The notes under the pieces were generated by a model. That model had not been told where the DNA came from, did not search any database, and saw only the letters and a program-made list of their open reading frames with translations. From positions 1-62,375 of IMG/VR virus record IMGVR_UViG_3300025770_000019: a stretch of DNA of 62,375 nt; one strand, written 5' to 3'. The position numbers were made by a program, and so were the translations under genes. Position 1 is the stretch's first letter. Each line of letters opens with the position of its first letter. Source of the DNA: a virus. This document shows, piece by piece, positions 2,062-41,546 of the stretch.

Positions 2062-2931
2062 ATGTCAATACAAATAAACGACGGATACGAGTTCAAGGCA
2101 GTCAAGCCACTACATGAGCGCGTTATGTTGGTTAAGAAGTCGACCAAACGACAGCGACAATCCATGCCGGACAAACAGGCGCGTGAACAACTGGCGCGTG
2201 ACACAGGCACCGACGCCGCGACGTGGAATGTGTCGAAGAAAATGTTCACGCGGTCTAAGTTATTCAAGGCTGCGAACACTGCGCTTAACACGTTCGACAA
2301 GTACGTTACTGATCACACGTCTGCCAGCTTAGACGACGGCTTTCGTACACTACCTAGCGTGGACTACATACCGTTTACGCAAGCAGTCAAACCGTTGATT
2401 CAGGACGTAGACGATGCGGCAGCTAACTTCAGTGCTGCGTACGAGAGCGAGGTGATTAACGATATGCGCTGGAACACGCAGTTCAGTCGAGCGGATTACC
2501 CAGCGTTCCCCCCAGAGATAAGCGCCAGCCTTAGCTTCCGGCCTATTGCGTCGAGCGACGTGTTTTACGACACCGTGGACGACGTAGCACGTGCTGCGTA
2601 TGAAGACCACCTTGACCAAGTGGAAGAAGCCGGTAAGCAGGAAGTTATCAGGCGGGTACTCAAGCCACTGGAGCAGACTGTCGCTAGACTGGAGACATAC
2701 ACCGGCGACAAAGGGCAGCGGTGGCACCAAGACGTAGTGGAGAACGCGTACGAAATGCTGGACACGTTGGAGAGTCTGGTCACGGATGGGGACTCTACTA
2801 TCATGCAGCTCCTCGCTGACGTGCGTACCACGTTGCAGCCCTACTGCGACAACGACAAGCTGCGTGACTCTCAACTGGCACGTGACAATGCCAAGCAGGA
2901 CATGGAGAGCATCCTGAGTAAGTTCCAGTGA
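2062..2931 (+). CDS. Hypothetical helical protein, candidate DUF3150-like partner of MoxR/VWA, 289 aa
   Basis: Good AAGGAG site before ATG 2062. The protein is almost wholly helical, with a basic N-terminal third (KKSTKRQRQSMPDKQAREQ), Trp-containing segments and long acidic helices (residues about 150-285). Proteins of the DUF3150 type, helical and of similar length, are often encoded beside MoxR ATPases and VWA proteins; the position of this gene upstream of such a pair suggests it is the third partner. That assignment rests mainly on context and should be tested by profile search. Its stop overlaps the next start. Confidence 0.6.
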   Translation: MSIQINDGYEFKAVKPLHERVMLVKKSTKRQRQSMPDKQAREQLARDTGTDAATWNVSKKMFTRSKLFKAANTALNTFDKYVTDHTSASLDDGFRTLPSVDYIPFTQAVKPLIQDVDDAAANFSAAYESEVINDMRWNTQFSRADYPAFPPEISASLSFRPIASSDVFYDTVDDVARAAYEDHLDQVEEAGKQEVIRRVLKPLEQTVARLETYTGDKGQRWHQDVVENAYEMLDTLESLVTDGDSTIMQLLADVRTTLQPYCDNDKLRDSQLARDNAKQDMESILSKFQ

Positions 2932-3227
2932 TTAGGCGCAAGGTGGGTAAGTTTCACCACCCCGACCTGAAAAGCGTAGGGTGGATAAGCGAGTCTCCCG
3001 ATGTGATGTTCGACGACAACGACACACTGCACGCCATGTCGCTCACGCTCTCCGGTCGAGTGCATGAGGCGAGTGACGACATGATTGATAAGGCACTGAT
3101 TCGCTTACACGTCGAACACGTCAAGGCTAAGCTGCGAGGGCAGACCGAAACCAGTGCGCTAGTCCAACGGTTAGAGGGGGACTTGCTTGCTGAAAGAGCG
3201 CGACGCGGCTGCAAGTTTGAGTCGTGA
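2928..3227 (+). CDS. Hypothetical protein, 99 aa
   Basis: A GTG start at 2928 overlaps the previous stop (GTGA); no strong ribosome site, so translation is probably by coupling. An alternative GTG lies at 2942. The protein has a C-terminal helix with HVEHVKAKLRGQ and LVQRLEGDLLAERARRG. It lies between the DUF3150-like gene and the MoxR gene and is probably part of that operon. No family recognised. Confidence 0.6.
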   Translation: MIRRKVGKFHHPDLKSVGWISESPDVMFDDNDTLHAMSLTLSGRVHEASDDMIDKALIRLHVEHVKAKLRGQTETSALVQRLEGDLLAERARRGCKFES

Positions 3228-3526
3228 GTATGGTTCCCGATCCCGCCGACATTGATAAGCAGATGGCAATCGTTATCGGGGAGTTCGAGAAGGGCACGCA
3301 GCAGACGTTGCGCACACCAACCATCGAACGGACTTACCACAGAATCAAGGCGGCTATGGTCAGAGATAAGCTGGCGGGTAAGACCACAAGTTTAATGGTT
3401 ATGGATTTTTACAACAAACTCAAAGCCGAGTTGGTGAAACGCACGTTAGCCAAGGTCAAAGCCGAGTTGGTGAAACGCACGTTAGCCAAGGGCAGCAGCT
3501 TAACTATGAGGCGATCCGAATCATGA
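3224..3526 (+). CDS. Hypothetical protein with in-frame 12-residue duplication, 100 aa
   Basis: GTG 3224 overlaps the previous stop (GTGA); ATG 3230 is an alternative start. The protein is helical and carries two adjacent copies of KAELVKRTLAK coded by a 36-bp tandem repeat at 3421-3492. The last coding part (GSSLTMRRSES) is basic. Function unknown. The duplication looks recent because the two copies differ at one base only. Confidence 0.6.
   Translation: MSMVPDPADIDKQMAIVIGEFEKGTQQTLRTPTIERTYHRIKAAMVRDKLAGKTTSLMVMDFYNKLKAELVKRTLAKVKAELVKRTLAKGSSLTMRRSES
3421..3492 (+). repeat. 36-bp tandem duplication (two copies)
   Basis: Copy one is 3421-3456 and copy two 3457-3492. They differ only in the final base (T versus G). 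The unit is a multiple of three, so the duplication keeps the reading frame and adds 12 residues. Confidence 0.95.
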
Positions 3527-3756
3527 ACGATGCAAAAGAGTGGCAGGAGCAAGGACTGGAGTTGCGATGGGTGCGCAGCCGCGCGCCGCAGCAACCGACC
3601 GACGTGCTGTTGCAGTTACACGGGGACAAGACGACGCAGTTAGTCAAAGCACGTCTCACAGGTAAGCCAGTAAAGACACTTGAGTCGATAGTGGATGCGC
3701 TGGACAGAGAACTAACCAACCGTGGCATGAGCCACACAACCAAAAAAGAGGAATAA
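3523..3756 (+). CDS. Hypothetical protein, 77 aa
   Basis: ATG 3523 overlaps the previous stop (ATGA). The N-terminal half is WQEQGLELRWVRSRAPQQ; the second half carries KTTQLVKARLTGK followed by a helix, again with the Lys-Ala-x-Leu motif seen in neighbours. It ends five bases before the MoxR gene. Unknown function; the four small genes 2928-3756 may be related helical proteins. Confidence 0.6.
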   Translation: MNDAKEWQEQGLELRWVRSRAPQQPTDVLLQLHGDKTTQLVKARLTGKPVKTLESIVDALDRELTNRGMSHTTKKEE

Positions 3757-3760
3757 ACAA

Positions 3761-4840
3761 ATGGAATCAACCATCGAGTTAAACTACTCATCCATGAAGA
3801 CCGCGATCATGGCGAACGTCGACGCGATTGACATGACGCCAATCATGATCACCGGTGCGCCGGGGTGTGCTAAGACCTCAGTGTGTTTAGACGTAGCGGA
3901 GTCTTACGGCATCCCGCGTAATGTTGCTGAACGCTGTATCTTTCGTCCGTCGTTGCGTGACCCAGTTGACCTTGCCGGGCTTCCGCATAACGAGCGCGAC
4001 GAAGACGGCGTACTGTATACACATTGGGCGGCTAATTCGTTCATCAAGTACGTCAACGACGTTGCTGCTAAGTACGGCATTGCGTTCTTAATAGTCGACG
4101 AGCTACCGCAAGCCGTGACCATGATGCAGAACGCACTGGCAGGGCTGATGCTTGACCGCTTCGTCGGGTCTAACTTCCTGCACGAGCGGGTGTTCCTACT
4201 ATCAACGGGCAATAGGGTGAAGGACAAGGCGGGTGCTGGTCGCATCGTCAGTCAGTTGGGCAACCGAGTGGAACACTTGCCGATGGCGGTCGACATTGAT
4301 GCGTGGGGTAAGCACATGATTGACACCTACGGATTTGATCGTGTCGGTATGTTCGTAGCGTACGTTCGCTTCGAGCCGGGTGTACTGGAGGACATTAACC
4401 CTGATCGAATGGTCAACGGTACGATGCGCTCATGTACAGCAGCAGCGATGATCAACCCTAAGTTGCCTCGCAACATATACCTAGCTAAGTTAGCAGGGCG
4501 CATACCCGAGGGCAGAGCCATGCAGTTCTTGACGTTTCGTGACCTGTTCGATGAGTTGCCCACAGCTGAGGCCATGCGTAACACACCTAAGACTGCCAAG
4601 TTACCGAACGGTAACAGGGGTGCGCTGTTTGCAGCGGCGTCACTTGCGTTCAAGCGATCCGAGGACGAGGCGTCGTTTAACGCAATGGCGAAGTACGTCG
4701 AGCGTATAGCGACAGAGGCGCTGGAGGCAGACATTGAAGCGTTCTTCTACAAGGACATAATGATACACAAGCAAGCGCTTGCCGAGACTAACGTGTTCAT
4801 TGAGTGGGCAACAGGTCGAGGCGCGGAGGTACTGTTATGA
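3761..4840 (+). CDS. MoxR-family AAA+ ATPase
   Basis: A 359-aa ATPase. Walker A is GAPGCAKT at residues 32-39, Walker B is LIVDE with Asp113/Glu114, a sensor-1-like segment follows (FLLSTGNR), and an arginine-finger candidate occurs near QLGNRVEHL. MoxR ATPases act as chaperone-like remodelling motors, usually with a VWA-domain partner. The next gene encodes exactly such a protein and overlaps this one by four bases, so the two are very likely made together. AAA+ remodelling of a host or phage complex is inferred; the substrate is unknown. ATG 3761 has a weak purine-rich site (AAAAAGAGGAATAAACAA). Confidence 0.85.
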   Translation: MESTIELNYSSMKTAIMANVDAIDMTPIMITGAPGCAKTSVCLDVAESYGIPRNVAERCIFRPSLRDPVDLAGLPHNERDEDGVLYTHWAANSFIKYVNDVAAKYGIAFLIVDELPQAVTMMQNALAGLMLDRFVGSNFLHERVFLLSTGNRVKDKAGAGRIVSQLGNRVEHLPMAVDIDAWGKHMIDTYGFDRVGMFVAYVRFEPGVLEDINPDRMVNGTMRSCTAAAMINPKLPRNIYLAKLAGRIPEGRAMQFLTFRDLFDELPTAEAMRNTPKTAKLPNGNRGALFAAASLAFKRSEDEASFNAMAKYVERIATEALEADIEAFFYKDIMIHKQALAETNVFIEWATGRGAEVLL

Positions 4841-6108
4841 CATCAGTAACGGTTAAGACAAAAGAAGGGGCGACGATGCGAGTTAAGCTAGTTGACCGCA
4901 GCGACATACCGGCCACGGTTAAGGTGTTCAGCCGAGCAGCAGCAGACATAATGTGCAACCCGAAGACAGGGTTCTACTCTGCGTTACTCATGCAGGTGCC
5001 GGTGCACTGGACTAGAGACATACCGACAGCCGGTGTGGACATTAAGGCGCGCATGTTCATCAACCCTGACTTCATAGATACACTGGAGTCGTTGGGTAAG
5101 GTGGTGTTCTTGATAATCCACGAGCTTGAGCACTTGCTACGGCTCCACCCCCAACGGGAAGCCAACCGCGACCCTGACAGATGGAACAAAGCGTGTGACG
5201 CGCCGATCAATGCCGACCTTGTTAAAGACAGGATAGGATCGTTCATCATGGGCGGTGTGGACATGCCCGAACACGCTGGACATACAGCAGACCATGTGTA
5301 CAACCTACTACCTGCTAAGAAAGAGGAGGAGGATGGAGATGGAGGTGAAGGCGGACAGGGAGGGGACAACCCCGGTGACGACTCCGGGGGCGACGGCGGT
5401 ATAGGTAGGGACGTGTTCAGTAAGGACTTACTGGAAGGCGGCAAAATGACAGCCAGTGATGTGCAAGCAGCGGAGGCCCACGTTAAGGGAGTAATTGCAG
5501 CAGCAGCTCAGACAGCACGAGTGGCTGGCTCCATGTCGGCAGAGATGCAGCGACGTGTTGACGACATACTCGATGTGAAGACACCGTGGTACGAAGTGCT
5601 TGAACGCTTCATGACTGAGGTATCCCAGAATGATTACTCATGGGCGCGACCTAACAGAAGGTTCGCATCACAGGGGATCGTGCTGCCATCACTGCACAGC
5701 GTAGCTGCGTTAGGTACGGCGGTGCTGATACGTGATGTATCGGGTTCAATTAGTGAGGACGAACACAAGGGAATGGTAGGGCATATTAACGCCATCGGTA
5801 CTAGGTGTATGCCTTCTATCATGCACGTGCTCGACGTGTCTACTGAGGTGCATTACAACCACGAGTTTGAGCCTAGTGACTTTCCCATCAGCCCTGAGAT
5901 ACATGGCCGCGGCGGCACTGACTTAACTGTCGGGTTCGACTACATCAATGAGAAGATTGAGGACGTAGCCATATGTGTCGTACTCACCGACGGGCATACA
6001 CCTTGGCCTAACATTCCACAGGACTACCCTGTAATAGTCGTGTGCACAACGGACGTTGACGTCGAGTACGGCGACGAGGTTGTGAGATACGAAAAGGAGA
6101 CTGGATGA
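4837..6108 (+). CDS. DUF2201-like putative metallopeptidase with VWA domain
   Basis: 423 aa from ATG 4837 (GGAGGT just upstream). The N-terminal half has a zinc-protease-type HELEH motif (His95-His99). An acidic Gly-rich linker (about residues 165-190) separates it from a C-terminal VWA-like domain. The MIDAS residues are visible: D300-V-S-G-S, Thr361 in GGTD, and Asp385 in LTDGH. This architecture matches DUF2201-type proteins paired with MoxR ATPases. The MIDAS should bind a divalent metal and a protein partner; proteolysis is possible but unproven. Stop overlaps the next gene's ATG. Confidence 0.85.
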   Translation: MTSVTVKTKEGATMRVKLVDRSDIPATVKVFSRAAADIMCNPKTGFYSALLMQVPVHWTRDIPTAGVDIKARMFINPDFIDTLESLGKVVFLIIHELEHLLRLHPQREANRDPDRWNKACDAPINADLVKDRIGSFIMGGVDMPEHAGHTADHVYNLLPAKKEEEDGDGGEGGQGGDNPGDDSGGDGGIGRDVFSKDLLEGGKMTASDVQAAEAHVKGVIAAAAQTARVAGSMSAEMQRRVDDILDVKTPWYEVLERFMTEVSQNDYSWARPNRRFASQGIVLPSLHSVAALGTAVLIRDVSGSISEDEHKGMVGHINAIGTRCMPSIMHVLDVSTEVHYNHEFEPSDFPISPEIHGRGGTDLTVGFDYINEKIEDVAICVVLTDGHTPWPNIPQDYPVIVVCTTDVDVEYGDEVVRYEKETG

Positions 6109-6524
6109 TGCCAAGCAGTATTAGGGACGATGAGGAAGTGTACCCTACTATCATCAGGCGGTTCGTTAGAGGCAGCTACACCGTCACGTTAGTATGCGAA
6201 GAAGCTGTGCAGCGTAGGGGGGTTCGCAGAGCGTTCAACCTACGCTGTGATGTGCGGTACAAAGATGCGGACGTCGGTACATACTTCGGCCCCTCGATTG
6301 AGGAAGCTGTTACGCGGGGTGACCTATCGTTCGACCGCACGTTGGGGTCGATCCACGACTACCTGAAGAAGCGCTTCGGGTGTGCAGTAGTGGGCGGTGC
6401 GGTGCGTAACGCTCGCACCAACATAAAACGTGCGGTTAAAGAGAGACTAAAAGGCCGAGTACTTGAGCCTGATTGGGATAGCGAAGGGAAACGATACTTA
6501 ATGAATAGCGATGGGAGACTTTGA
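6105..6524 (+). CDS. Hypothetical protein, 139 aa
   Basis: Starts at ATG 6105 (or ATG 6108), overlapping the VWA gene stop, with AAAAGGAGA upstream. Basic protein with a beta-rich N-terminal part (SYTVTLVCEEAVQRRG) and a basic helical C-terminal part (NARTNIKRAVKERLKGR). Could bind nucleic acid. It may be a further member of the MoxR/VWA operon by coupling, but no family is recognised. Confidence 0.65.
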   Translation: MMPSSIRDDEEVYPTIIRRFVRGSYTVTLVCEEAVQRRGVRRAFNLRCDVRYKDADVGTYFGPSIEEAVTRGDLSFDRTLGSIHDYLKKRFGCAVVGGAVRNARTNIKRAVKERLKGRVLEPDWDSEGKRYLMNSDGRL

Positions 6525-6703
6525 TGGACGAGCTGGATTTAATACTGGATTACTATGTGATCTACCGTAAAGAGGACAACCAACACCTCGTAAACAACTA
6601 TGCAGACTTTCGCAAAGCACTGCGGAAACTAATGCAGGAGGACTGTGATGCACCACAAGCGACGACGACCGAAGAACCGAAGGGCGGGGTGCTTACTCTG
6701 TAA
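6524..6703 (+). CDS. Hypothetical protein, 59 aa
   Basis: ATG 6524 is preferred to an in-frame TTG at 6521 because GGGAG precedes it; it overlaps the previous stop (TGATG). The protein is acidic and aromatic at its start (DELDLILDYYVIYRK) and otherwise helical. No known family. Its end overlaps the 44-codon gene at 6648 in another frame. Confidence 0.6.
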   Translation: MDELDLILDYYVIYRKEDNQHLVNNYADFRKALRKLMQEDCDAPQATTTEEPKGGVLTL

Positions 6704-6779
6704 GCCACATAAGGCTAACGGGTGTAAGCACATTGAGAAGCACAGCGTAAGAAAACGTATGGAGCAGGATAATGGGTGA
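6648..6779 (+). CDS. Small basic Cys/His protein, 43 aa
   Basis: CAGGAGGA stands six bases before ATG 6648. The sequence begins with a run of Arg/Lys (HHKRRRPKNRRAG) followed by CLLCKPHKANGCKH, a compact Cys/His motif that recurs in very small proteobacterial and phage proteins of unknown role. It overlaps the previous gene by 56 bases and the next by 8, so it is easily missed. Probably zinc- and nucleic-acid-binding. Confidence 0.7.
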   Translation: MHHKRRRPKNRRAGCLLCKPHKANGCKHIEKHSVRKRMEQDNG

Positions 6780-6996
6780 TGTAGACCGATATGATAACAA
6801 CCCCGACAACGACGAAGACCCTATGGGCCGATCCGAGTATGGGGAGTGGGTTATGTATGACGATTACCAATCCCTACAGCAGCAGCTAGAGGCGGCAGAG
6901 AAAGAGAATCGAGACATGCGCCGGATTGCTGACTTGAATGATTACACGCAGATTCAGTACAACTATCCACCACTATCAGGGGAGCAGGATGGTTGA
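6772..6996 (+). CDS. Hypothetical acidic coiled-coil protein, 74 aa
   Basis: ATG 6772 follows GGAGCAGGA. The N-terminal third is very acidic (DRYDNNPDNDEDP), then a short coiled-coil (YQSLQQQLEAAEKENRDMRR, about residues 32-52). Overlaps both neighbours by 8 bases. Function unknown. Confidence 0.6.
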   Translation: MGDVDRYDNNPDNDEDPMGRSEYGEWVMYDDYQSLQQQLEAAEKENRDMRRIADLNDYTQIQYNYPPLSGEQDG

Positions 6997-7141
6997 AGTC
7001 GTATTGTATTTCTTTTTAAGTTGTGGGCCGGTGAAGTTTGCATCGTTCGACAGCATGGAGGCGTGCGTAGCAGCACGCGATCAAATCACAGAGTTCGACG
7101 GACTCTGTTTAACTATAGAGCAAGGGGTAACACATGACTGA
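6989..7141 (+). CDS. Hypothetical protein with hydrophobic N-terminus, 50 aa
   Basis: ATG 6989 with GGGGAGCAGG directly upstream. Residues 3-12 (EVVLYFFLSC) are hydrophobic, then SMEACVAARDQI and a short acidic end. It could be exported or membrane-attached. It overlaps the previous gene by 8 bases and the next by 8 bases. No family recognised. Confidence 0.6.
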   Translation: MVEVVLYFFLSCGPVKFASFDSMEACVAARDQITEFDGLCLTIEQGVTHD

Positions 7142-7532
7142 ACTAGTAACCATAAGTGAGGCACAGGCTAAACGTCTGGAGTCTATAGGCGTTCCGGTAC
7201 AGCTGACGTATGCCGTAGATAAGAAAATCATCGACGCGATTGAAGCTGTAGCGGGTCACGCAACACCGAAACGGGCTAAGAAAAAGCAAGGGCGGCACTC
7301 AATGGAGTTTAAGCGCACCGGCAAAAAGCCTAGATTCAACAAAGGGTCTGCGCGGGACAGAGCAATTAAAGTGCTGAACGTAATAATGCCTACTGGCGAC
7401 GTACTAACCAGAGATGATATTCAAGTGGAATTCATTAAACGTGGAGTATGCGACAGGGCGTACGCAGCAGGCGTTATCAGCGAGCTGGTGCAAGCCGGTG
7501 ATTTGAAAGTCACTAGATACAAGGGCGATTAG
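7134..7532 (+). CDS. Hypothetical protein with C-terminal winged-helix-like segment, 132 aa
   Basis: Starts at ATG 7134. The middle is strongly basic (TPKRAKKKQGRHSMEFKRTGKK). The last 65 residues (from about SARDRAIKVLN) alternate helices and end in a possible beta-wing (LVQAGDLKVTRYKGD), which looks like a winged-helix DNA-binding domain. It may therefore be a transcription regulator of the left arm. This is a pattern judgement, not a family match. Confidence 0.65.
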   Translation: MTELVTISEAQAKRLESIGVPVQLTYAVDKKIIDAIEAVAGHATPKRAKKKQGRHSMEFKRTGKKPRFNKGSARDRAIKVLNVIMPTGDVLTRDDIQVEFIKRGVCDRAYAAGVISELVQAGDLKVTRYKGD

Positions 7533-7569
7533 TCGTCTATAAACCCAAGTCCATTAAAGGAGATACACA

Positions 7570-8283
7570 ATGGCAACAGTAAGAGTAACAAACGAGTTGC
7601 GGGACAAAATTAAAAACCTCGCAGTAAAAGCGTTCGACCTAGCGAAGCCAGTGCCAGTGCTTGACCAGCCTGACGTTGTTAGGTTGTGCACCGCCGTAAC
7701 CACCAGTAAGACGGGGCAGGAGATGAACACGATTGCTTCCATGCTGGAGGCTATCTGCGCACGCGGGGGGGCCGTGGGGGGCCAAGCCGAAATGAAGTTC
7801 TTCGGCCTCGATTCGGTGCGCCTCAAGCAGGAAACGCTTGACCACATCAGCGTGTACTTCAAGCGAAAAGGTGATACTAAAGGCCAGCATGTAAACCTTG
7901 AAGTTCCGACGGTGTTCATGGTTGCGGAAGGTAGATGGGGCGGCGGAAGTTCTGATATACATACTGCCATGCTGGACGAGGATGACCACGCCTACTTCGA
8001 CCTCGCGTTTAACAAACTGGCGGACAAGCTAGAAGCGCGAAGTGATGAGTTTAATGCCTACAAGAGCCAAATCGCGCGGTTACTTGACGGGTGCAACACG
8101 TACAAGCAACTGCTTGAAGCGTGGCCTCAAGTCACTGCGTTCACTCCGCAGGAAATACTCGACAGGCACAACGAGAAAGCAGAGAAGCGTAGCCGAGGTA
8201 AGCTGGTGCGGGATGAGATTGAGTTCGACACCGACACCATGAATCAGGTAGCGGTGAAAGCGAAGCTCACTGGCAAGCTGTAA
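7570..8283 (+). CDS. Hypothetical protein, possibly Nmad5-like, 237 aa
   Basis: AAAGGAG precedes ATG 7570. The C-terminal part (NTYKQLLEAWPQVTAFTP) resembles the ending of small phage proteins annotated as 'nucleotide modification associated domain 5', often of similar length; the N-terminus (VRVTNELRDKIKNLAVKAFDLAK) also fits that pattern. Nmad5 has been linked by context, not by assay, to modified phage DNA. The final residues again show VKAKLTGK. It is the last gene before a non-coding control region. Confidence 0.5.
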   Translation: MATVRVTNELRDKIKNLAVKAFDLAKPVPVLDQPDVVRLCTAVTTSKTGQEMNTIASMLEAICARGGAVGGQAEMKFFGLDSVRLKQETLDHISVYFKRKGDTKGQHVNLEVPTVFMVAEGRWGGGSSDIHTAMLDEDDHAYFDLAFNKLADKLEARSDEFNAYKSQIARLLDGCNTYKQLLEAWPQVTAFTPQEILDRHNEKAEKRSRGKLVRDEIEFDTDTMNQVAVKAKLTGKL

Positions 8284-8388: not shown

Positions 8389-8565
8389 GGTTACTCGGAT
8401 AAGCGGTGAGTGCCGTTAAAACCGCCGCAGTTGAAGGACGTGGTTTTTTGTTGGTGAACCTCCTTTTCCCACGTCTGATTCAACCGTCTAGCTCACGCTA
8501 CGAGCTATAACACCTGCACGTAATGTGGTTTGGTGCGGTTAACTATGCAACTAAGGGGAACAATC

Positions 8566-10503
8566 ATGGCTTTAACGCCAGTGTTTTACGACTTTGAAAC
8601 ATTCTGGTCAGTCGCTCACTCACTATCAAAAATGTCGGGCATTGAGTACGTAATGCACCCCGACACAGAAATCATTTCATGCTCCATCCAAGAAGGGTTT
8701 AACGATACGCCAGTTACATACTTCGGATACGACGACATTGCTGATGCGTTCGCCCACATAGATTGGGACAACGCGTGGGCTATTGCTCACAACAATTCTG
8801 AGTTCGACGCTATGATTCTAGCGTGGCGTTTCCACATTAAGCCTAAGATGTGGGGGTGCACGTTAGCAATGGCACGCCCCGCGTTCACTAAAACTACAGG
8901 CGTGTCGCTCAAGGCACTGGGTAAACACTTCGGCTTAAAGCCTAAAGGTGACTTAGAGGCAACCAACACCAAGGGTAAGAACCTTAAGGACTTCAGTGAC
9001 GATGAACGCGAAGCAATGGCGGACTACAACGACGACGACACTATTATATGTGCGGGGATTTTCCGCAGGTTGCTGCCGACTATACCCAAAGAAGAACTGC
9101 GACTAATAGACTTGACTATACGTATGCTCGTTGACCCGCAGTTCGATGTGAACACTGAGCTGCTAGGCCGGGGGCTTAAAGCTGAACGAGGTCGCAAGAA
9201 GAAGGTGCTACAAGACTTGGTTGACCTTCTCCTGCCGGTTGAAGATCAGGTCAGGCAAAAACTGGAAGGTGTAGACACGCTCGTGTGGCTACAAGGCGAA
9301 CTAAAATCCGCACCCAAGTTCCGCAAAATGCTGGAGTCTCTCAAGGTAGAAGTACCTATGAAAGAGTCGCCCAACACAGGGCGTATGATTCCCGCTCTCG
9401 CTAAGAACGACCAACAGTTCCTCGCACTTAAAGACCATCCTAACGAGTACGTCGTAGCAGCAGTAGAAGCACGACTCGACACACAGTCATCCATCCTTGA
9501 GACACGCATGGACAGGTTCATTAAAGTCGCCAACATGTGCGATGGGAAAATGCCTATTGCCCTGCGTTACTACGGAGCCGACACTACAGGAAGGTTTTCT
9601 GGCACGATGAAACTCAACCAGCAGAACCTAACTCGCGTCGGCCCCGTACCTAAGATCAGCGACGTACTACGCAAATCACTGCGTGCACCGAAGGGGTACA
9701 AGGTGGTGGTTGCTGACCTGAGCGGCATTGAGTTGCGGGTCAACATGTTCTTGTGGCAAGTGCCGTATGCGGTGAAGCTGTTTACGGAACACCCCGACAG
9801 CGCTGACCTATATCGCTACTTCGCGGCTAACGATCTATACCACAAGCACGAGTCAGAGATAACCAAAGCCGAGCGCCAACTAGGTAAGGTATCGCATCTG
9901 GGACTTGGGTTCGGTGCTGGTCATGTGACGTTCCGTGACGTAGCTAAAGTTATGGGCGGCGTTGAACTCACCGAAGCTGAGTCGTTAGACGTAGTAGGTA
10001 AGTACCGTAAGGCCCACCCGCAGATTACACAGGGCTGGCGTAAGTGCCACGGATCGCTAGACCTAATCAAATCAGGGCTACGTGCTGACATTGATCCATG
10101 TGGGTTATGCCACACGTCAGCCGAGGGCATCGTTACACCGAAGGGTACTATCAGGTATCCCGACCTGCGTACTGAGATAGACGGCGGCAATGCTGAGTGG
10201 TGGTACGGTCACGGTCGTAACGAGGCGCGTATCTACGCCGGGAAAATAGACGAGAACATCGTGCAACACCTCGCGCGTAATGTGATCACTGACATTGCCT
10301 TGGACATGCACACTGCGTTCGGTAAGCAGTACCCGCTTGCGCACAGCGTGCACGACGAGCTGGTGTACGTAGTTAAAGACCAAGACGCCGACGAAATACT
10401 TGATACGGTACAAACACGAATGCGCCAGTCACCCGACTGGTGGCCTGAACTGCCGACATGGAGTGAGGGTGACATAGGACAAACTTATGGAGATGCGAAA
10501 TGA
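8566..10503 (+). CDS. Family A DNA polymerase with 3'-5' exonuclease
   Basis: 645 aa from ATG 8566 (AAGGGGAACAATC upstream). The N-terminal 3'-5' exonuclease begins with YDFET (Asp9, Glu11). Polymerase motif A is VVADLSGIELR (Asp384), motif B is R437-QLG-K441-VSH-L445-GLG-F449-G, and motif C is HSVHDE (Asp597, Glu598). There is no 5'-3' exonuclease domain. By alignment to E. coli Pol I, Leu445 stands where Phe762 is, and Phe449 where Tyr766 is. Replicates the phage genome. The stop overlaps the next ATG. Confidence 0.95.
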   Translation: MALTPVFYDFETFWSVAHSLSKMSGIEYVMHPDTEIISCSIQEGFNDTPVTYFGYDDIADAFAHIDWDNAWAIAHNNSEFDAMILAWRFHIKPKMWGCTLAMARPAFTKTTGVSLKALGKHFGLKPKGDLEATNTKGKNLKDFSDDEREAMADYNDDDTIICAGIFRRLLPTIPKEELRLIDLTIRMLVDPQFDVNTELLGRGLKAERGRKKKVLQDLVDLLLPVEDQVRQKLEGVDTLVWLQGELKSAPKFRKMLESLKVEVPMKESPNTGRMIPALAKNDQQFLALKDHPNEYVVAAVEARLDTQSSILETRMDRFIKVANMCDGKMPIALRYYGADTTGRFSGTMKLNQQNLTRVGPVPKISDVLRKSLRAPKGYKVVVADLSGIELRVNMFLWQVPYAVKLFTEHPDSADLYRYFAANDLYHKHESEITKAERQLGKVSHLGLGFGAGHVTFRDVAKVMGGVELTEAESLDVVGKYRKAHPQITQGWRKCHGSLDLIKSGLRADIDPCGLCHTSAEGIVTPKGTIRYPDLRTEIDGGNAEWWYGHGRNEARIYAGKIDENIVQHLARNVITDIALDMHTAFGKQYPLAHSVHDELVYVVKDQDADEILDTVQTRMRQSPDWWPELPTWSEGDIGQTYGDAK

Positions 10504-14377: not shown

Positions 14378-15364
<987 letters not shown>

Positions 15365-18902: not shown

Positions 18903-19109
18903 TTAGCTGCGGTTCTTACCTTCGTACCCACCAGCCTGACCGTTGACCGGTTTGATCTCGCCACCGGGCATCACGTTCATCGGTGTGTCGTGGTGCAACG
19001 TAGGTGCTTTACCACCTAGCTGGCCGCAAGTGCCAACTGTAATGACCGGGCCGTGCTTTTTGAACGAGTGGTTTTCGCCGTAGCAACCACCTGCTTTATC
19101 TGCTTTCAT
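18903..19109 (-). CDS. Hypothetical protein, 68 aa (last late gene)
   Basis: ATG 19109 follows AGGAGAACAACA and overlaps the stop of the 2354-aa gene (ATGA). It is rich in Gly and Lys with two Cys (GGCYGENHSFKKHGP, VGTCGQLGG). No family recognised. It may be a minor virion protein as the last gene of the structural arm. Only base 18902 separates it from the + strand operon end. Confidence 0.65.
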   Translation of the reverse strand: MKADKAGGCYGENHSFKKHGPVITVGTCGQLGGKAPTLHHDTPMNVMPGGEIKPVNGQAGGYEGKNRS

Positions 19110-22100
19110 TGTTGTTCTCCTGTTATAAAATCGACTTCGTCGTTGTACCTATCGTACTGCTTGCCACCTCGTAACCCACCAGCTCCGCGATCTCTGCGTG
19201 AGTCTCTACGGTTTTGTAGCGACCGACGCATTGTCTTCGGGGTTATTCGTACCCCCTTCCGCTGATTGTTACGCAGGTTGAACGCTTGAATCTCTTTACG
19301 TACTGCCTGCACGGTGCTACGGTCGCCAACAAGTTTAGCTTGAGCGTACCGCCTCAGCAAGTCACCTCTAACCCCCTCCACAGCCTGCTTTACCTTAGAC
19401 CTACGCATGTTTGCGGTGTAGTAGTCTGACACTTTGGTTGGCGCAAACCCCATGTACTGCATCAGGACGTCAGCAGAGTCGAAGCCCTCTGGCCCTATGA
19501 TCGGTTCGCCTGATCGCTCAGTCAGCCCCTGATCGCTCAGGTTGTAACCCTTGAATAAGTTCTGCACTCCTTTCGCTGGGACTATCTTCTCCAGCCCCTT
19601 CATAAAGCGACCGCCCTCACCGGTAGACGCTGCGTCGACCATTGTGTTCACCCCGTCGTAGGCGTTGACGCCGTACGCAGGTGCTGCACCTAATGCAGCA
19701 ATTATTGTCTCGGCCACCGTCTCTCTAGGCGTCTCGCCCTCACGTCTGAACGGCAGAGCGAACAGTAAATCCCCCATACCAATTCTACGAGATACATCAA
19801 GCCCACCTATCGTTGGCAGTCCGTGCATCATCGCTCGGGCGAAGTCAGCGCCATCTTCTCCACCCCCACCGAACTCGCTCCAAAACTCCCGCAGTGCCAG
19901 CTCCGCGTCAAACGGTTCATCGTCGTCGTCTCCGAACACCTCGGTAGCCAAGTTCGCTAACCATGCAATCGAGCCAGCTAACGGCATACCAGTCATACCA
20001 CCCATAATCCCGGTGGTGGTGAACAGCCCGAACAAAGTATTACGTGCTTCCCGTTGCTCCTGCTTCGTGGCGTTGGAGTTAAACATCGCGTCTTTCATGT
20101 TCTTAGTTATCAGGTACACCATGCCCTGCTGGTACTTCCTGAACTGAAACACGATCTTACCTAGCGCACGTGACCCTGCTACCTCCTGCATGTAACGAGG
20201 TGCGTTCAGTCCTGAGTAGTCGAGCTGTGTTTCGTTCACGCCTTGCAGCGCGTACTCAGTTGCTTGTGCGTGAACCTGCTCAGCACTCAACGTGCTGTCG
20301 CCCTTCAGACGCTTACTCTCCAGACGGTACGAGGCTAAGGCGGTAACGGCTCGGTTGGCGAGTTCGCTAATCCTAACAGGCGTGTTAAGTATTTGTATGT
20401 ACTCACTGTTACGGCTGAACTGACTGGCTATGCCGGAGTCGGAACCACCTTTGGCAACTGCGGACAGGTCGTGCTCGATAGTGATGTCTAGCTTGTTACG
20501 CTCCAGCAGCTCCTGCATCATGCGAGACTCGTTGGCCGGTAGCTTACCTTCCCAGTCAAACTCCATGCGCCAGCCCCCGTTACGGAACCCGCCCTCTTTA
20601 ACCCAATTCGACTTTATTATTTTCCCGGTGTCAGCGTACGCTTTACCTATCGCAGAGGTAGCGCTACGTACGCCATGTCGTGCAGCTAACCACGGAGCCG
20701 TTATCATCGGCACCTGAGACATGTTCGTCGCTATGTACGCTGGAGACAGACCCAAGTGAGCCATGAAGCTGAGCGTCATAAACGAATCAGCGATAGGACT
20801 TTCGTCGTGCTCGTACACCATACCCGCACGGTTGTTAATCTCGTTACGTACTCTGGTCGCTTCCCCTTCGTTTTGGCGAGAACCCATACCACGTATATCT
20901 AGCAGCGCTTCACCAACTTCTTTGGAGTGCTTCATGCGGCTGATCATGTGCGCGTTCTTCACAGCAGAGTCGGAGAACACCTGTCTCATGTCCTTGTCTG
21001 CCCCATGTACGCCCTCTCGCTTAAGCTGGGATTTAGCAGCGGCGTTACCCGGCAACATGTCTGCGTACATGTACTCAAGGATGCCCCGCACTTTACCCTT
21101 GGCATCAGGGGTGAGGTCACTACTGGCAAAGTATTTTTCGATAGCAGCAATGTCTGGAGCGTCCCTAATCTGAGCTTTGTACAGGTCGGTCGACTCTTGG
21201 TAGTAGCTGGCCCCCATCCGCTTCTCTAGCTGGCGCTGGCGTTCACGAGCCTCGTTTACAGTTTTGAACGACTCCGCGATGTAGTGGTTAGGGTCTTTGC
21301 GTAACTGCGCCATCAACGCTTTGTCTTTGCCTACTAACGGCGCTTCGTCGTTAGCGTTCATCAGGGCTTCCAGCTCACTAGACATGCCGACCGTGTAGTA
21401 CTTGTTCAGCCGCTTCAGTGGGAAGTACGGCCCTTTGATCTTCTTCATGGACTCTAAGTCGCCGGTCAGCTTGTCCAAGTTTTGTGGGTTATCCGCAGCG
21501 GCGGCGTCAAGTATCGCGCCCTCCAGTATCGCCACCTTATCGTTGTGCCAGTGAGTGAACTCGTCGCGCACAGTTTCATACAACGTCTTTACGTCGCCGT
21601 CTAACTTGTCAAAGTTCCGCTTGAGCTTCTGCTGCTCCGGTGTTTGTGGAGCATCTTTCGATGGGTCGTACTGCTCCAACGTGGTGTCGATCATCAGCGC
21701 GTTCATAGCTTCTATTTGCTTAGGACGGTCAGACTGAATTGCAGACCACACCTTGTTAACTGAGTGCGCGTCAGCGAGTAGGTCTTTAGACGTTCGCTGT
21801 ATCTTATGAACCGCGTCGACGTAGTTACGAACCTGCGGGAATCCGGATCGGTCTGCTATCTGCTCCAGCGTCAGCCATCCTAGCTTGCCTTTCTCGTACG
21901 CTGTGAATACGCCGGGGAGAGTTTCCTCTACCTTCCACGCTATCTTGTCAGAGATGGCGCTCATCTCTGTGCTGACACGCTCTGAATTTGACTCGCCGAA
22001 CTTAGCCATCGAGATTGGGAGTACGCCTTCCCAGTCGCTTACCGGCTTGAATACTACCTGCCCTTTGTCGTTAAACTCCGTTGTGTATCTACCTGACTTT

Positions 22101-25100
22101 ACTGCGTCGTCCAGTACTTGTATCAGGTCGTCGATGTATTCTTCTGTAGCAGTGCCGTCGGCGATCTTACCGATTAAGTCTTCTCGCCCCATCGCTACGA
22201 TAGGGTTGAGGGTTTGTCCTGAGCGCGACTCATTCTCGTACACGTTTACAGTGGCCTGATCTCCGGCTTCTGTCGTTTGGAACTCATGCGCAGCGTACTG
22301 GCCCATCAGCTCTTTGTTAAGTCTTCGCATCAGCGCGAGAGTTTCTGTCTCACCTACCTCTTTGCCTGCCAGTTTATGGAACCCGTGACGACGCAGCCAC
22401 TGCTTGAACTCACCGACTGCCGCTTTAATGTCGTTCCACAACCCAGCGTTAGTCTTTCGCCCCATAGAGTATGCCATCATCTCCTCGAACAAGACGGCTC
22501 TAGCTCGCAGCAACCCCATGTCGGAGTCGAGGAACTCTTTTTCGTAGTGCAGGAGCGCGTCGCTAACGCCTAACTTATCCGCTAGTGCGAACAGTTTGTC
22601 GCGGCCCATACCGAGACTAACGCTTGCCATGGCACCTGTGCGGTCTGCCCCGAACATAGACGCCGCAGCAACGTGAGTCATTTCATGGAGCACCGTGTCT
22701 TCGATGTCAGCCAAACTTGAGTGCGAATCTGAGACGATGTAGGCCGTGAAGAATGGTTCGTTGCCTGTCTTGAACGTCGTCCTCGTATTCATCACACCGA
22801 ACAGCGTTGCGCCGCCCAGCGCTTGGAACTCCGCTTGAATGTGAGCAGGTAGGTCGGAAAAAGTCTCTACCACCTCTAGCTTCCAACTCCCATTGGCACG
22901 CCAACCTCTGGCACTAGCGATCCTGCTGGCTACCCGCTTCGCAGCTTGTGCAGTCACTCCTGTTTTCTTGCCTTTGGAGGTGCCTTCGTACGCGTACATG
23001 TCCCCCTTCTCCGTGGGGATCACACGCCTAGACTTCTTCGTCGTTATCTTACCGTCGGCCGCTAGTTTTTCTGCGAGTCCTTCGATGGCTTGTTGTTGTG
23101 TCTGGTTTTCAGAAACAGTCGTGTCCCCGAGTCCAGTCTCGCCGGGTTGTTCCTGAGCTGCTTGCTGGCTATCGTCTCGGCTGAGTCGAGCAGACGCTTC
23201 ACTCCGTTGTTCTCTGGCGCGGTCATTTTGTATCTCCTGTAAAGCTCGCTGTGCACTGTTGACCAGACCTCGGGCCGACTGTTCACCTGTAGCAAGCATC
23301 TCAATAACTGTCTGCTGGTAGCCGGGGGTCAGCTCTGCAAACGGCGTCTGCGCAACTCCCTCTGGCTCGTTCTGGGCGGTGCGATCATAAATCGTCTCCC
23401 CCATACTAAGGGTTTCGTCGTTACGGAACGCTTCCAGTAGCTCTACGTGGTTGGCAGCGCTCTCCTCTTGCAGTCGTGCGTTCTCTGCCCTAATTGCTTC
23501 GTCTGACTCTCGGGCGTCTTGCTCCTGCTGGAACTTACCGAACCACTGGCGTTTTTGTGACTTGGACTGCGCCGCCCACTTCTTACCTGTCTGAGTCTCG
23601 AACTCAGTTTTAACCATCTCCGCAACGGCTTCGTTTTCCAGTAGGGCGTCCACTCGCGTCGCGTCGGTAACGTCGAACGCACTTATGCCCGACACCCCCT
23701 TCGTCTCATCTCGTATGGTGAAGCCAGCACCTTCAGCCAACTCCTCTTGAGCGACGGCTTCCACTTCTTCGTCTTGGTTAGCTAGCGCTTGCTCGTCGGC
23801 TACCCCACCTACAAGCTCGGCCTCGTCCACCACATCCTCTTGAGCGGCCTGCTCCGCGTTCATCTCTCGGCGGCGGGTGTTGATCTGGCCCAGTGCGTCG
23901 TACATGTCGACGCCCATAGAAGCCTCGACCTTCCCTCGGATACCTTTCAGGTAGTTGCTCACCGTGTTGCGCTTCATGCCTGTGCGGTCAGCGATGGCTT
24001 TGGGTGATACGTTACTCTTAGAGTTCTTCTTGCTGAGGGAGACTATAGATTCCATCTCGTCGTTCACTGCTGCGTCAAGCAACAGGTTCCAGACAGTTTG
24101 TTCACCATCAGTAAGTCCCATGTCCTGCTGACCCACCTCCAGAACGTCCATCAACTCCGCGTCGGTAGCTTTCACTGGCTCTGCAACAGTCTCAGTGGTC
24201 TGCTGCGCTGCGGGAGCTGCAACCACAACCGGAGCTACGGGGTTTTCTCCGCGCTCAACGATAACCTCACGCACCAGTGCTTTCTTCCACTCGGAAGTCT
24301 TCGCGTTGGTCAGCGTTTCACGCAGCTTAGACAGCGGCACCTCTCGATACCGTAGCAGCATTCGTTGTAGGTCAGCGTTAGGTGACCCGTCTTTAGTGCT
24401 GGCCTTTACCAGTGCTTCTCGCCCCGCCGCAGTCTGAAATATGGGGTCGCTGACAAGGTCTCGTCTTTGCTGCTTCCGCGTGCGCTTAGGCTCGTTCGTC
24501 TTCTTAGCCAGTGCGTCACGAGTAGCTTGGTCCGCTTTCTCCTGCGTGTCCGGAGGTGTAATAGAATCAGGCTCGTCGACGAGGTTCTCAACCTGAGTGG
24601 CCTTCCCTCTACCGGCGCGGCGTTCTATCCTACTGGCTACCGCACCTACAAAATCTCTGTACGCCCCGGTTGAGGGGTCTAGCTCTTGCGTGCTCGTGTT
24701 GCCGTTCGAGTCGGACAGTTTTACGTACGGGTTACCTTCGTACGGAATTGGTAGGAACTTCTCTGGTTGATTTTCGTTGTGCGCCCAGATAGCACGCAGC
24801 TCCATTACCTCCCCTTCTGAAAGGCGGCGCTCGATCTGCGTCTCTTTATCGTTGGCGTAGATTGCAGGTTCACTCGGAGCGTCGTAGGCTGCTTTAACGT
24901 CAGCTTCGCGCTGCTTAGACTGCTCTTTGGTTGGGCGCTTCGGCGTCGACTGATCAATGGCTTCGCCCGGCGTCTGACCATCCAGAATATTCAGCTCTGC
25001 ATCAACTCCGACGGCTTCAAGACGACCAAGTATCACGCGCTGGTTAGCAGCGCTATCTGGAGTGAACTCGACGTCGGGAGTTGTAGGCGGAGGGCTGTTA

Positions 25101-26170
25101 CCTTCGCCATCTCCGGTTATGTCTGTCCCACCTAAATCTGGTTCACGTTGTGGTCGTAACCCACCTACTACACCGCCAGCCAAACCGCCAGCAGCAGCAC
25201 CGGCGAACGCGGCTTGCCATAATTTGTTTCGGTAGTCCTGCTGTTCCTGAAGGTCGTCGTCAAACGCCTGAACCTCAACGTCAGAGCCTAGGTCTTCCAG
25301 CATGGTCTGCCCTGATTCCGTCGCGCCCTCTACTGCAGCCGCCGCACCGAAACCTTTAAGCCCCCGCTTAACAACACCGCCGGAGGTGAGTGCGTCGCCT
25401 AACTTACCGGCCGCACCCTGCGGTAGAAATCGCCCCGCCCCTAGCAAGAACAGGTCACTGGCGAACTCAAGCGAGCCTGCGGCTGTGCCGTAGAACGCAG
25501 CTTTGACGTTATCTACTTCGTCGAGCGTGTTGCCGCGTGCTATCTGTTCTTCACCGGCCTGCCCATACGTAGAACCGAGTCCCTGCCCAATCGCGTTAAC
25601 ACCTAAACCGCCAGCGAACCCGCGCTTAGCAGCTTTCTTAATCTGGTCTTTAGTGGCGTGTTCAGCTAGTTTCTTCAGCCCACCCTTGGCTAGCTGCTTA
25701 CCAGCAAAACCTGCGAGTCCGCCGCCAGCTAGATTAGACAGCCCGAGGGTCGTGTAATACTGTGCAGCATCGACGTAGTCACCGCCGGTGGCCTCGTCAC
25801 TTTGTAGGTGCTCAAGTTCAAACGCGGGACGCTGATGCGCCTGCATCGCCTCCATGCGTTCTTGGTAGGTCTCGAACAGGGCGTCGCGGGTATCAGTAGC
25901 GCCGACAGAGTCAGCGACCAGTGCGCCAACACCTGCGCCCAACCCGACTATCTGGTTACCGTAGGTGCGTATGCCGCGTTGGAAATCCCCGCGTGTGTTT
26001 TCAGGTTCAGGTGCAACCGCTTCGCGTCGTGTACCGCCCATAAGCCCAGCGCGGACAACGTCACGGTTAACCCCTACATCATCAGCATAGCTATTGAGTA
26101 AGTCCTCGTCAGACTGATCAGAAAATTCAGGGTATTGATCTCTGACGTCTTGCAACGAATTGACAGGCAC
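19106..26170 (-). CDS. Giant polyvalent-type internal virion protein, 2354 aa
   Basis: GTG 26170 sits at a TAAGTG junction with the upstream gene (AGGGGTG site). Visible parts: Gly/Ala-rich hydrophobic N-terminal segments (residues about 50-340), a sigma70-region-4-like HTH (about 695-760, MKRNTVSNYL from Met732), Glu/Gln-rich linkers, a zinc-metalloprotease-like HEMTH at 1162-1166 with a downstream EEMMAY (Glu1229-Glu1230), and a C-terminal region like LPD38 of polyvalent proteins with DDDDEPF and a basic tail. Such proteins travel in the virion and are thought to enter the host with the DNA. It could also serve as ejection channel. Confidence 0.8.
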   Translation of the reverse strand: MPVNSLQDVRDQYPEFSDQSDEDLLNSYADDVGVNRDVVRAGLMGGTRREAVAPEPENTRGDFQRGIRTYGNQIVGLGAGVGALVADSVGATDTRDALFETYQERMEAMQAHQRPAFELEHLQSDEATGGDYVDAAQYYTTLGLSNLAGGGLAGFAGKQLAKGGLKKLAEHATKDQIKKAAKRGFAGGLGVNAIGQGLGSTYGQAGEEQIARGNTLDEVDNVKAAFYGTAAGSLEFASDLFLLGAGRFLPQGAAGKLGDALTSGGVVKRGLKGFGAAAAVEGATESGQTMLEDLGSDVEVQAFDDDLQEQQDYRNKLWQAAFAGAAAGGLAGGVVGGLRPQREPDLGGTDITGDGEGNSPPPTTPDVEFTPDSAANQRVILGRLEAVGVDAELNILDGQTPGEAIDQSTPKRPTKEQSKQREADVKAAYDAPSEPAIYANDKETQIERRLSEGEVMELRAIWAHNENQPEKFLPIPYEGNPYVKLSDSNGNTSTQELDPSTGAYRDFVGAVASRIERRAGRGKATQVENLVDEPDSITPPDTQEKADQATRDALAKKTNEPKRTRKQQRRDLVSDPIFQTAAGREALVKASTKDGSPNADLQRMLLRYREVPLSKLRETLTNAKTSEWKKALVREVIVERGENPVAPVVVAAPAAQQTTETVAEPVKATDAELMDVLEVGQQDMGLTDGEQTVWNLLLDAAVNDEMESIVSLSKKNSKSNVSPKAIADRTGMKRNTVSNYLKGIRGKVEASMGVDMYDALGQINTRRREMNAEQAAQEDVVDEAELVGGVADEQALANQDEEVEAVAQEELAEGAGFTIRDETKGVSGISAFDVTDATRVDALLENEAVAEMVKTEFETQTGKKWAAQSKSQKRQWFGKFQQEQDARESDEAIRAENARLQEESAANHVELLEAFRNDETLSMGETIYDRTAQNEPEGVAQTPFAELTPGYQQTVIEMLATGEQSARGLVNSAQRALQEIQNDRAREQRSEASARLSRDDSQQAAQEQPGETGLGDTTVSENQTQQQAIEGLAEKLAADGKITTKKSRRVIPTEKGDMYAYEGTSKGKKTGVTAQAAKRVASRIASARGWRANGSWKLEVVETFSDLPAHIQAEFQALGGATLFGVMNTRTTFKTGNEPFFTAYIVSDSHSSLADIEDTVLHEMTHVAAASMFGADRTGAMASVSLGMGRDKLFALADKLGVSDALLHYEKEFLDSDMGLLRARAVLFEEMMAYSMGRKTNAGLWNDIKAAVGEFKQWLRRHGFHKLAGKEVGETETLALMRRLNKELMGQYAAHEFQTTEAGDQATVNVYENESRSGQTLNPIVAMGREDLIGKIADGTATEEYIDDLIQVLDDAVKSGRYTTEFNDKGQVVFKPVSDWEGVLPISMAKFGESNSERVSTEMSAISDKIAWKVEETLPGVFTAYEKGKLGWLTLEQIADRSGFPQVRNYVDAVHKIQRTSKDLLADAHSVNKVWSAIQSDRPKQIEAMNALMIDTTLEQYDPSKDAPQTPEQQKLKRNFDKLDGDVKTLYETVRDEFTHWHNDKVAILEGAILDAAAADNPQNLDKLTGDLESMKKIKGPYFPLKRLNKYYTVGMSSELEALMNANDEAPLVGKDKALMAQLRKDPNHYIAESFKTVNEARERQRQLEKRMGASYYQESTDLYKAQIRDAPDIAAIEKYFASSDLTPDAKGKVRGILEYMYADMLPGNAAAKSQLKREGVHGADKDMRQVFSDSAVKNAHMISRMKHSKEVGEALLDIRGMGSRQNEGEATRVRNEINNRAGMVYEHDESPIADSFMTLSFMAHLGLSPAYIATNMSQVPMITAPWLAARHGVRSATSAIGKAYADTGKIIKSNWVKEGGFRNGGWRMEFDWEGKLPANESRMMQELLERNKLDITIEHDLSAVAKGGSDSGIASQFSRNSEYIQILNTPVRISELANRAVTALASYRLESKRLKGDSTLSAEQVHAQATEYALQGVNETQLDYSGLNAPRYMQEVAGSRALGKIVFQFRKYQQGMVYLITKNMKDAMFNSNATKQEQREARNTLFGLFTTTGIMGGMTGMPLAGSIAWLANLATEVFGDDDDEPFDAELALREFWSEFGGGGEDGADFARAMMHGLPTIGGLDVSRRIGMGDLLFALPFRREGETPRETVAETIIAALGAAPAYGVNAYDGVNTMVDAASTGEGGRFMKGLEKIVPAKGVQNLFKGYNLSDQGLTERSGEPIIGPEGFDSADVLMQYMGFAPTKVSDYYTANMRRSKVKQAVEGVRGDLLRRYAQAKLVGDRSTVQAVRKEIQAFNLRNNQRKGVRITPKTMRRSLQNRRDSRRDRGAGGLRGGKQYDRYNDEVDFITGEQQ

Positions 26171-41400: not shown

Positions 41401-41546
41401 CCGTCGAACCCAACGAACGTAGCTAAGTAATAGTCTGTACCGGGATCAGGAAAGTCAGCCGCGCTAACCAGCGTCACAGAAGTTGCGACGTTAGTAATAG
41501 CGCCGTTTGTGACTCCTACCGCGTTGTTTACAAGTATCTGGCCCAT
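38415..41546 (-). CDS. Tail fibre protein with sequence repeats, 1043 aa
   Basis: ATG 41546. The N-terminal part ('NNTPFEARI') and the repeated '[21 protein letters not shown]' units are typical of fibre shafts. Later come repeats '[18 protein letters not shown]' and '[27 protein letters not shown]'. The C-terminal domain ([22 protein letters not shown]) is a common fibre end. Trimeric fibre contacting the next gene's receptor-binding protein is likely. Contains a 30-bp tandem repeat at 40982-41041. Confidence 0.8.
40982..41041 (-). repeat. 30-bp tandem repeat in fibre gene
   Basis: Two perfect adjacent copies (40982-41011 and 41012-41041) coding the ten-residue unit [10 protein letters not shown] twice on the minus strand. 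In frame, likely from recent slippage or recombination. Confidence 0.95.

Follow-up and report, generated by a model that had tools for sequence, protein, structure and literature searches.

A MoxR-type ATPase and a VWA-metallopeptidase protein in a conserved four-gene unit of the phage replication region, rearranged in one short-tailed virus

What does a MoxR-type ATPase paired with a VWA-domain protein do in a phage, and with which other proteins does it work? The question is raised by IMG/VR virus record IMGVR_UViG_3300025770_000019, a stretch of 62,375 bases that was analysed as a whole and that we call the window. An original prediction, made from the DNA letters alone, had placed such a pair at 2062-6108, together with a helical, possibly DUF3150-like gene and three small coupled genes. 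The window, whose plus strand encodes polymerase, helicase and primase and whose minus strand encodes terminase, portal, capsid and tail proteins, comes from a short-tailed virus of bacteria. We find that the pair is a known one in a new setting: it forms part of a unit of four genes that is conserved in the replication region and the order of which is rearranged in this phage. What is new is not the ATPase/VWA pair, which was already known, but the unit, in which the pair is joined by the helical protein and by a Nmad5-like protein. The latter is encoded at 7570-8283, so that the predicted span, correct for its six genes, ends short of a conserved partner.

The unit was recognized in 169 distinct related contigs, which all seeds together contributed after removal of 13 duplicate loci and 5 named phages; these contigs were picked by likeness to the window proteins, and the figures therefore describe this phage group rather than all phages. 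All hits to the unit lie on one strand in 169/169 contigs. Among the 86 contigs in which the unit is in full view, the order is ATPase-helical-VWA-Nmad5 in 35, ATPase-Nmad5-VWA-Nmad5 in 34, ATPase-Nmad5-VWA in 14 and ATPase-helical-VWA in 1, and the pair stands by itself in 2. The helical gene precedes the ATPase gene in the window only (0/169 contigs). When loci were seeded by the VWA protein alone, 39 were in full view; the helical gene was present in 31 of these and Nmad5 in 36, and two (L074 and L084) had neither at that threshold. In the 6 closest VWA-seeded IMG/VR loci the helical family is always present, between the ATPase and VWA genes (6/6), and in most loci that do not have it the same slot is filled by a homolog of the window's Nmad5-like protein. 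In loci L056, L065-L067, L073, L075 and L083 the VWA gene is flanked by two Nmad5-like paralogs.

The association also holds when it is approached from the two partners. An alignment of the helical family used as seed retrieved 17 loci, with the VWA gene in 17/17 and the ATPase gene in 16/17, the locus without it breaking off at a contig end. Nine relatives of the window's Nmad5-like protein, used as seed, gave 107 loci, of which the best 80 comprised 73 with both ATPase and VWA genes, 4 with the ATPase gene only and 3 with the VWA gene only; in those 7 incomplete loci the Nmad5 gene lies at most 322 bases from the contig end, on the side of the missing gene. Nmad5 relatives were found in one genome contig, a 60.8-kb contig of a metagenome-assembled genome that holds the ATPase, the VWA protein and two Nmad5 proteins. 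Of the predicted set, the helical gene is therefore conserved together with the pair.

The setting of the unit is equally regular. A relative of the DNA polymerase is visible in 105 of 165 loci, and in 105/105 it lies downstream on the same strand, at a median of 2.8 kb. A terminase gene is visible in 10 of the 165 loci and a portal gene in 3, in every case upstream and on the opposite strand (10/10 and 3/3). Because the polymerase is co-stranded and downstream and the packaging genes are on the opposite strand, we conclude that the unit belongs with replication rather than with virion assembly, and virion maturation, which the original prediction had listed among the possible targets, is disfavored by this location.

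Judged by its sequence, the protein encoded at 3761-4840 is a MoxR-type AAA+ ATPase, with the predicted Walker A (GAPGCAKT, residues 32-39) and Walker B (D113-E114) motifs in place. It matches phrog_1297 in PHROG at 1.1e-44 and gp24 of phage N4 at 2.8e-21 by blastp, and K38, N151, R169 and R223 are invariant in 34/34 aligned relatives; the last three are taken, as in other AAA+ proteins, to be sensor 1, the arginine finger and sensor 2. The window's Walker A motif has Ala at a position where 94% of the aligned ATPases have Gly. The solved chains nearest to the family profile are those of Midasin (E 5.5e-31), with a CbbQ/NirQ/NorQ protein lower in the list. Against Pfam the window ATPase reaches AAA_5 at E 0.009, under the cut-off, and hmmscan gives nothing at 0.1; within an 8-sequence ATPase alignment, 5/8 members match AAA_5 and 3/8 match AAA_3. 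Relatives are present in 485 phage records (E<=1e-5); as a single seed the window ATPase found none in viral contigs and none in genome contigs.

The second protein of the pair, encoded at 4837-6108, is a DUF2201 protein with a metallopeptidase-like and a VWA domain, and, to judge by its intact catalytic motif, it may be a protease. Pfam matches it to DUF2201_N at 3.5e-39 (135.5 bits, cut-off 23.2) and to DUF2201 at 8.8e-16 (58.6 bits, cut-off 26.4); it matches phrog_1314 at 6.7e-81 and N4 gp25 at 1.4e-33 by blastp, and relatives occur in 429 phage records (E<=1e-5). The predicted HELEH sequence (95-99) and complete metal ion-dependent adhesion site (MIDAS; DVSGS 300-304, T361 and D385) were both confirmed: in an alignment of 52 sequences (the window, 47 IMG/VR representatives, N4, XC38, S-TIM61 and MinM2), H95, E96, H99, H104, D300, S302, S304, T361 and D385 are invariant in 52/52, as are N117, D121 and N125. 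The HExxHxxxxH zinc-site motif and the MIDAS are therefore both intact. Sequence matches of the profile to solved structures are weak, with a best E of 0.004. In RefSeq and PHROG this protein is labeled an HNH endonuclease, which looks like a propagated error because an HNH domain is not among the Pfam matches of the window protein, which at E<=1 are to DUF2201 families only.

The helical protein is probably a remote relative of DUF3150. Its AlphaFold model (predicted local distance difference test score, pLDDT, 89.8) resembles a viral model named DUF3150 (E 7.4e-13, TM 0.76), 7/38 members of its family reach DUF3150 at E<=0.1 (best 3.4e-4), one relative aligns near full-length to PF11348 at 18.1 bits, under the cut-off of 24.9, and the homolog in Synechococcus phage MinM2 carries a DUF3150 annotation. 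The window protein itself does not match PF11348, and the profile matches 0/12 related records at E<=1. The helical partner that the original prediction had proposed is thus conserved and its tentative label plausible, although the likeness falls under the Pfam cut-off. Searching phages by tblastn with the window protein returned nothing, and the version from a relative returned three cyanophage records. The model matched nothing in the PDB at E<=0.001. Its further structural matches (best Z 10.9, mostly over residues 166-289) reflect common helical-bundle arrangements and are not evidence of kinship. Homology between the helical and Nmad5 families was also considered and rejected, the probability from profile comparison being only 1.3%.

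The fourth component scores 29.8 bits (7.9e-07) against Nmad5 (PF18757), the cut-off of which is 27, but it aligns to positions 121-184 alone of the 206 in the profile; 42/70 members of its family match the profile at E<=0.1. As a single seed the window protein found no relatives in viral contigs, and tblastn of a relative's Nmad5 against phages gave nothing; its structural model is weak (pLDDT 73.6). Among 70 aligned sequences no polar residue is invariant, and no His, Cys, Asp or Glu of catalytic type is strictly conserved, the best reaching 83%. Since an invariant catalytic set is lacking here, unlike in the VWA protein, we consider an enzyme less likely than an adaptor or client. A study of Dhillonvirus reports that a missense change in nmad5 allows escape from the Tmn defense whereas deletion of nmad5 does not, and that cloning of nmad5 was toxic (PMC11846954). 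Both observations would suit a protein whose action depends on contacts.

The layout of the locus is given in table 1. The six genes at 2062-6108 have the coordinates predicted for them. GTGA or ATGA stop-start overlaps of 4 bases occur at 2928, 3224, 3523, 4837 and 6105, that is, at 5/6 junctions including the one after the VWA gene, and the remaining junction (3756/3761) has a 4-base gap. All six score as coding by codon usage and the overlapping minus-strand open reading frames (ORFs) do not. Scans for promoters and terminators gave no more signals than in shuffles, and megablast of window positions 1-25000 against phages gave zero matches.

Table 1. Genes of the unit and its surroundings in the window
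Feature	Coordinates	Strand	Remarks
Helical protein, 289 aa	2062-2931	+	Third member conserved in related loci; probably remotely related to DUF3150
Small protein 1, 99 aa	2928-3227	+	Motif VKAKLRGQ; GTGA overlap; positive coding score; no relatives found
Small protein 2, 100 aa	3224-3526	+	Motif VRDKLAGK; positive coding score; no relatives found
Small protein 3, 77 aa	3523-3756	+	Motif VKARLTGK; positive coding score; no relatives found
MoxR-type AAA+ ATPase, 359 aa	3761-4840	+	phrog_1297; N4 gp24 family
DUF2201 protein, 423 aa	4837-6108	+	Metallopeptidase-like domain (HExxH) joined by an acidic/glycine linker to a VWA domain whose MIDAS is complete; N4 gp25 family
Nmad5-like protein, 237 aa	7570-8283	+	Fourth component; PF18757; tail carries VKAKLTGK
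DNA polymerase	8530-10503	+	Context after the unit, outside the machine; phrog_17 1.3e-55

Elsewhere in the window, there is a small upstream gene (1451-1699; phrog_21321, 6.3e-06), and in loci L023 and L024 a relative of it (5.3e-06) lies right before the unit. The gene at 14378-15364 holds two adjacent 6-base repeat arrays at 15100-15189 (GCCTGA x8.7 and AAACCG x6.3), and a perfect 30-bp tandem duplication lies at 40982-41045 within the large gene 38415-41546. A minus-strand gene at 19106-26170 encodes a 2354-aa protein with a DarB-like antirestriction match (phrog_10089, 2.6e-66).

The original prediction had listed the three small genes with the pair, and had named in advance a lack of conservation with the pair as the outcome that would speak against it. 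A phmmer search (E<=0.1) of the 17,529 ORFs in the related loci gave no homologs of the three proteins, and small protein 3 as seed found no relatives in a scan of viral contigs. The small genes are coding but private to this phage, and the outcome speaks against them. They do share with the tail of the Nmad5-like protein the motif [VLI][KR]x[KR]LxG[KQ], which is present in exactly 4 of 73 window products, these being the three small proteins and that tail, and which was met a single time in the 10,546 ORFs from other loci and at a frequency of 0.00025-0.00065 in shuffled versions of each. Because the motif was defined post hoc, after the small proteins had been viewed, and the pattern is absent from other phages, we treat it as a lead; when 94 Nmad5 tails were tested for a repeat of the tail motif in neighboring small genes of other phages, nothing clear emerged. 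Small proteins 1 and 2 are weakly similar (z 4.35, 1/300 shuffles, 66 pairs tested), which is only suggestive of a single tandem family. Small gene 2 contains a perfect in-frame 36-bp tandem duplication (3420-3491) that looks recent. A second triplet of small genes at the unit is seen in MinM2 (L107:7878-8904), where three look-alike genes of 111-115 aa lie between DUF3150 and VWA.

We favor, with a confidence that falls somewhat short of even, the hypothesis that 2062-8283 encodes a protein-remodelling and clipping machine of the replication phase, in which the helical and Nmad5-like proteins would serve as adaptors or clients. By analogy with NorQ/NorD, CbbQ/CbbO, RavA/ViaA and Midasin, the ATPase would form a hexameric ring on which the VWA protein docks, the substrate would be held through the MIDAS of the VWA protein, and ATP hydrolysis would pull on the substrate or refold it; the HExxH metallopeptidase domain may in addition cut it. 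The conserved gene neighborhood suggests that the helical and Nmad5-like proteins would be dedicated adaptors or clients rather than enzymes, and that the substrate would be a complex, of the phage or of the host, that is active at DNA replication or close to it. More tentatively, the three small proteins may, through the motif of the Nmad5-like tail, compete for or dock on one site. The remodelling machine of MoxR and VWA proteins with a third, helical partner that was originally envisaged is supported in this form. A more specific version, which we regard as speculative and rather unlikely, is a MoxR/VWA-metallopeptidase motor with interchangeable adaptors, in which one slot would be occupied by the helical protein or a Nmad5 paralog and a second Nmad5 would often follow. 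Nmad5 would then be a misnamed replisome-side adaptor or client that is recognized by its short tail, which the three small proteins would copy so as to tune or block delivery, and Vibrio phage ICP2 would possess this machine too, but driven by another motor.

Profile comparison outside the group, which covered thirteen records, bears on these ideas in both directions. Nmad5 and DUF2201 occur together in the window and in five Schitoviridae (1.097.O, JA-1, pVco-5, PG11 and phi 1), in the first of which Nmad5 lies between the ATPase and VWA genes, and Nmad5 occurs with CobT/CobS-type genes in ICP2. Other observations weigh against the machine as we picture it. In JA-1, pVco-5, PG11 and phi 1 the Nmad5 gene lies kilobases from the pair, beside the polymerase or other replication genes; in YuA and CN1 it occurs without either VWA family and adjoins base-modification genes. 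The DUF2201 pair is found without Nmad5 in N4, XC38, S-TIM61 and MinM2, and the helical family is absent from the N4, XC38 and S-TIM61 stretches, so that neither partner is needed everywhere. Of 555 VWA relatives and 107 Nmad5 relatives, moreover, the sample takes in the best 80 each, and gene neighborhood points to a common function but does not tell which of the proteins bind one another. The link between Nmad5 and the pair thus recurs but is not obligatory.

Among the alternatives, virion assembly survives best, although we consider it unlikely: the pair would remodel and cleave structural proteins, as explicitly proposed for group 2.2 jumbo phages (PMC7824862) and as an analogy to ATV, an archaeal virus, would suggest. 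In S-TIM61 the pair does adjoin virion genes and a gene for Hsp20, which suggests that its use may differ between phage groups. For the present group we prefer a role in the replication phase to that published proposal because of the strands on which the polymerase, terminase and portal genes lie, which place the unit in the replication transcription unit and the packaging genes on the other strand, and because gp24 and gp25 of N4 precede the replication genes. In addition, the rows for the ATPase and the metallopeptidase in a table on phage KP8 lack the end figure seen for the capsid decoration protein, a figure that we read as virion mass-spectrometry coverage (PMC6950046).

We think it quite improbable that the machine serves counter-defense or host takeover by unfolding or cleaving a host defense or housekeeping complex early in infection. 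The ATP-driven, protease-like make-up and the position near the start of the plus-strand unit, with small genes upstream, would suit such a role, but the unit is near-universal in the examined loci and the pair is core in Schitoviridae, unlike what is expected of most counter-defense genes. PADLOC, moreover, matched none of the four window proteins, although a relative's ATPase matches mad8 at 0.003. A search of NCBIfam gave no matches. We also doubt that the pair inserts a metal or cofactor, maturing a metalloprotein as NorQD does, with the Nmad5-like protein as client and the HExxH motif handling metal without cutting. Metal-inserting MoxR-VWA pairs are well characterized (PMC13036017, PMC9976466) and the Nmad5 gene of ICP2 lies near CobT/CobS-type genes, but the 70 aligned Nmad5-like sequences share no strictly conserved set of His, Cys, Asp or Glu. 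Least probable of all is support of a DNA hypermodification pathway with Nmad5, which is suggested by the family name, by the place of the Nmad5 gene of YuA, next to genes for a 5-hmdU DNA kinase and for a putative dUMP hydroxymethyltransferase, and by the missense escape from Tmn, but is opposed by the absence from the window of both a thymidylate synthase-type gene and a 5-hmdU DNA kinase and by the failure of nmad5 deletion to give escape.

The replication-phase machine that we favor can be set beside several known systems. Its pair resembles NorQ/NorD, CbbQ/CbbO, RavA/ViaA and Midasin in combining a MoxR-class AAA+ protein with a VWA partner. We know of no DUF2201 metallopeptidase domain and no Nmad5 or DUF3150 partner in those systems. 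The pair of the group 2.2 jumbo phages has the same two-protein architecture, N-terminal metallopeptidase domain included; the passage that describes it mentions neither a third nor a fourth partner, and it assigns the pair to virion assembly, whereas the window pair is part of a replication unit (PMC7824862). MinM2 has the ATPase, a helical homolog (E 1e-52) and the VWA protein on one strand in the order ATPase-helical-VWA, but it has no Nmad5, and its three small genes are unlike those of the window by eye. In ICP2 (Zobellviridae) a Nmad5 protein (5.7e-15), a VWA protein and an AAA_5 ATPase are encoded on one strand within ~5 kb (L190:6001-11173), but the motor pair is of the CobS/CobT type and not DUF2201. 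The CobT-type VWA protein of ICP2 has a HECYH stretch near its N-terminus. ICP2 gp38 was considered as a member of the helical family and rejected.

The closest comparison is with N4, the identity of whose gp24 and gp25 with the pair was overlooked, like the Nmad5-like member, by the original prediction, which was right that the pair itself is real. Families, order and strand are as in the window and the pair lies upstream of the replication genes, but the N4 stretch has no member of the helical family and the N4 record no Nmad5. The pair is listed among the core proteins of Schitoviridae (PMC7650795, Table 2), and, S-TIM61 and MinM2 aside, every record with a DUF2201 protein for which the taxonomy was consulted belongs to that family (N4, XC38, 1.097.O, JA-1, pVco-5, PG11 and phi 1). 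In the literature searched we found no stated role for gp24 and gp25, and nothing that links DUF3150, Nmad5 and MoxR-VWA proteins together. The conserved unit offers a functional lead for DUF3150 and Nmad5, two orphan families of which the second has a link to sensing by the Tmn defense, and its near-fixed place beside the DNA polymerase would give the core genes gp24 and gp25 of N4 a role in the replication phase and named partners.

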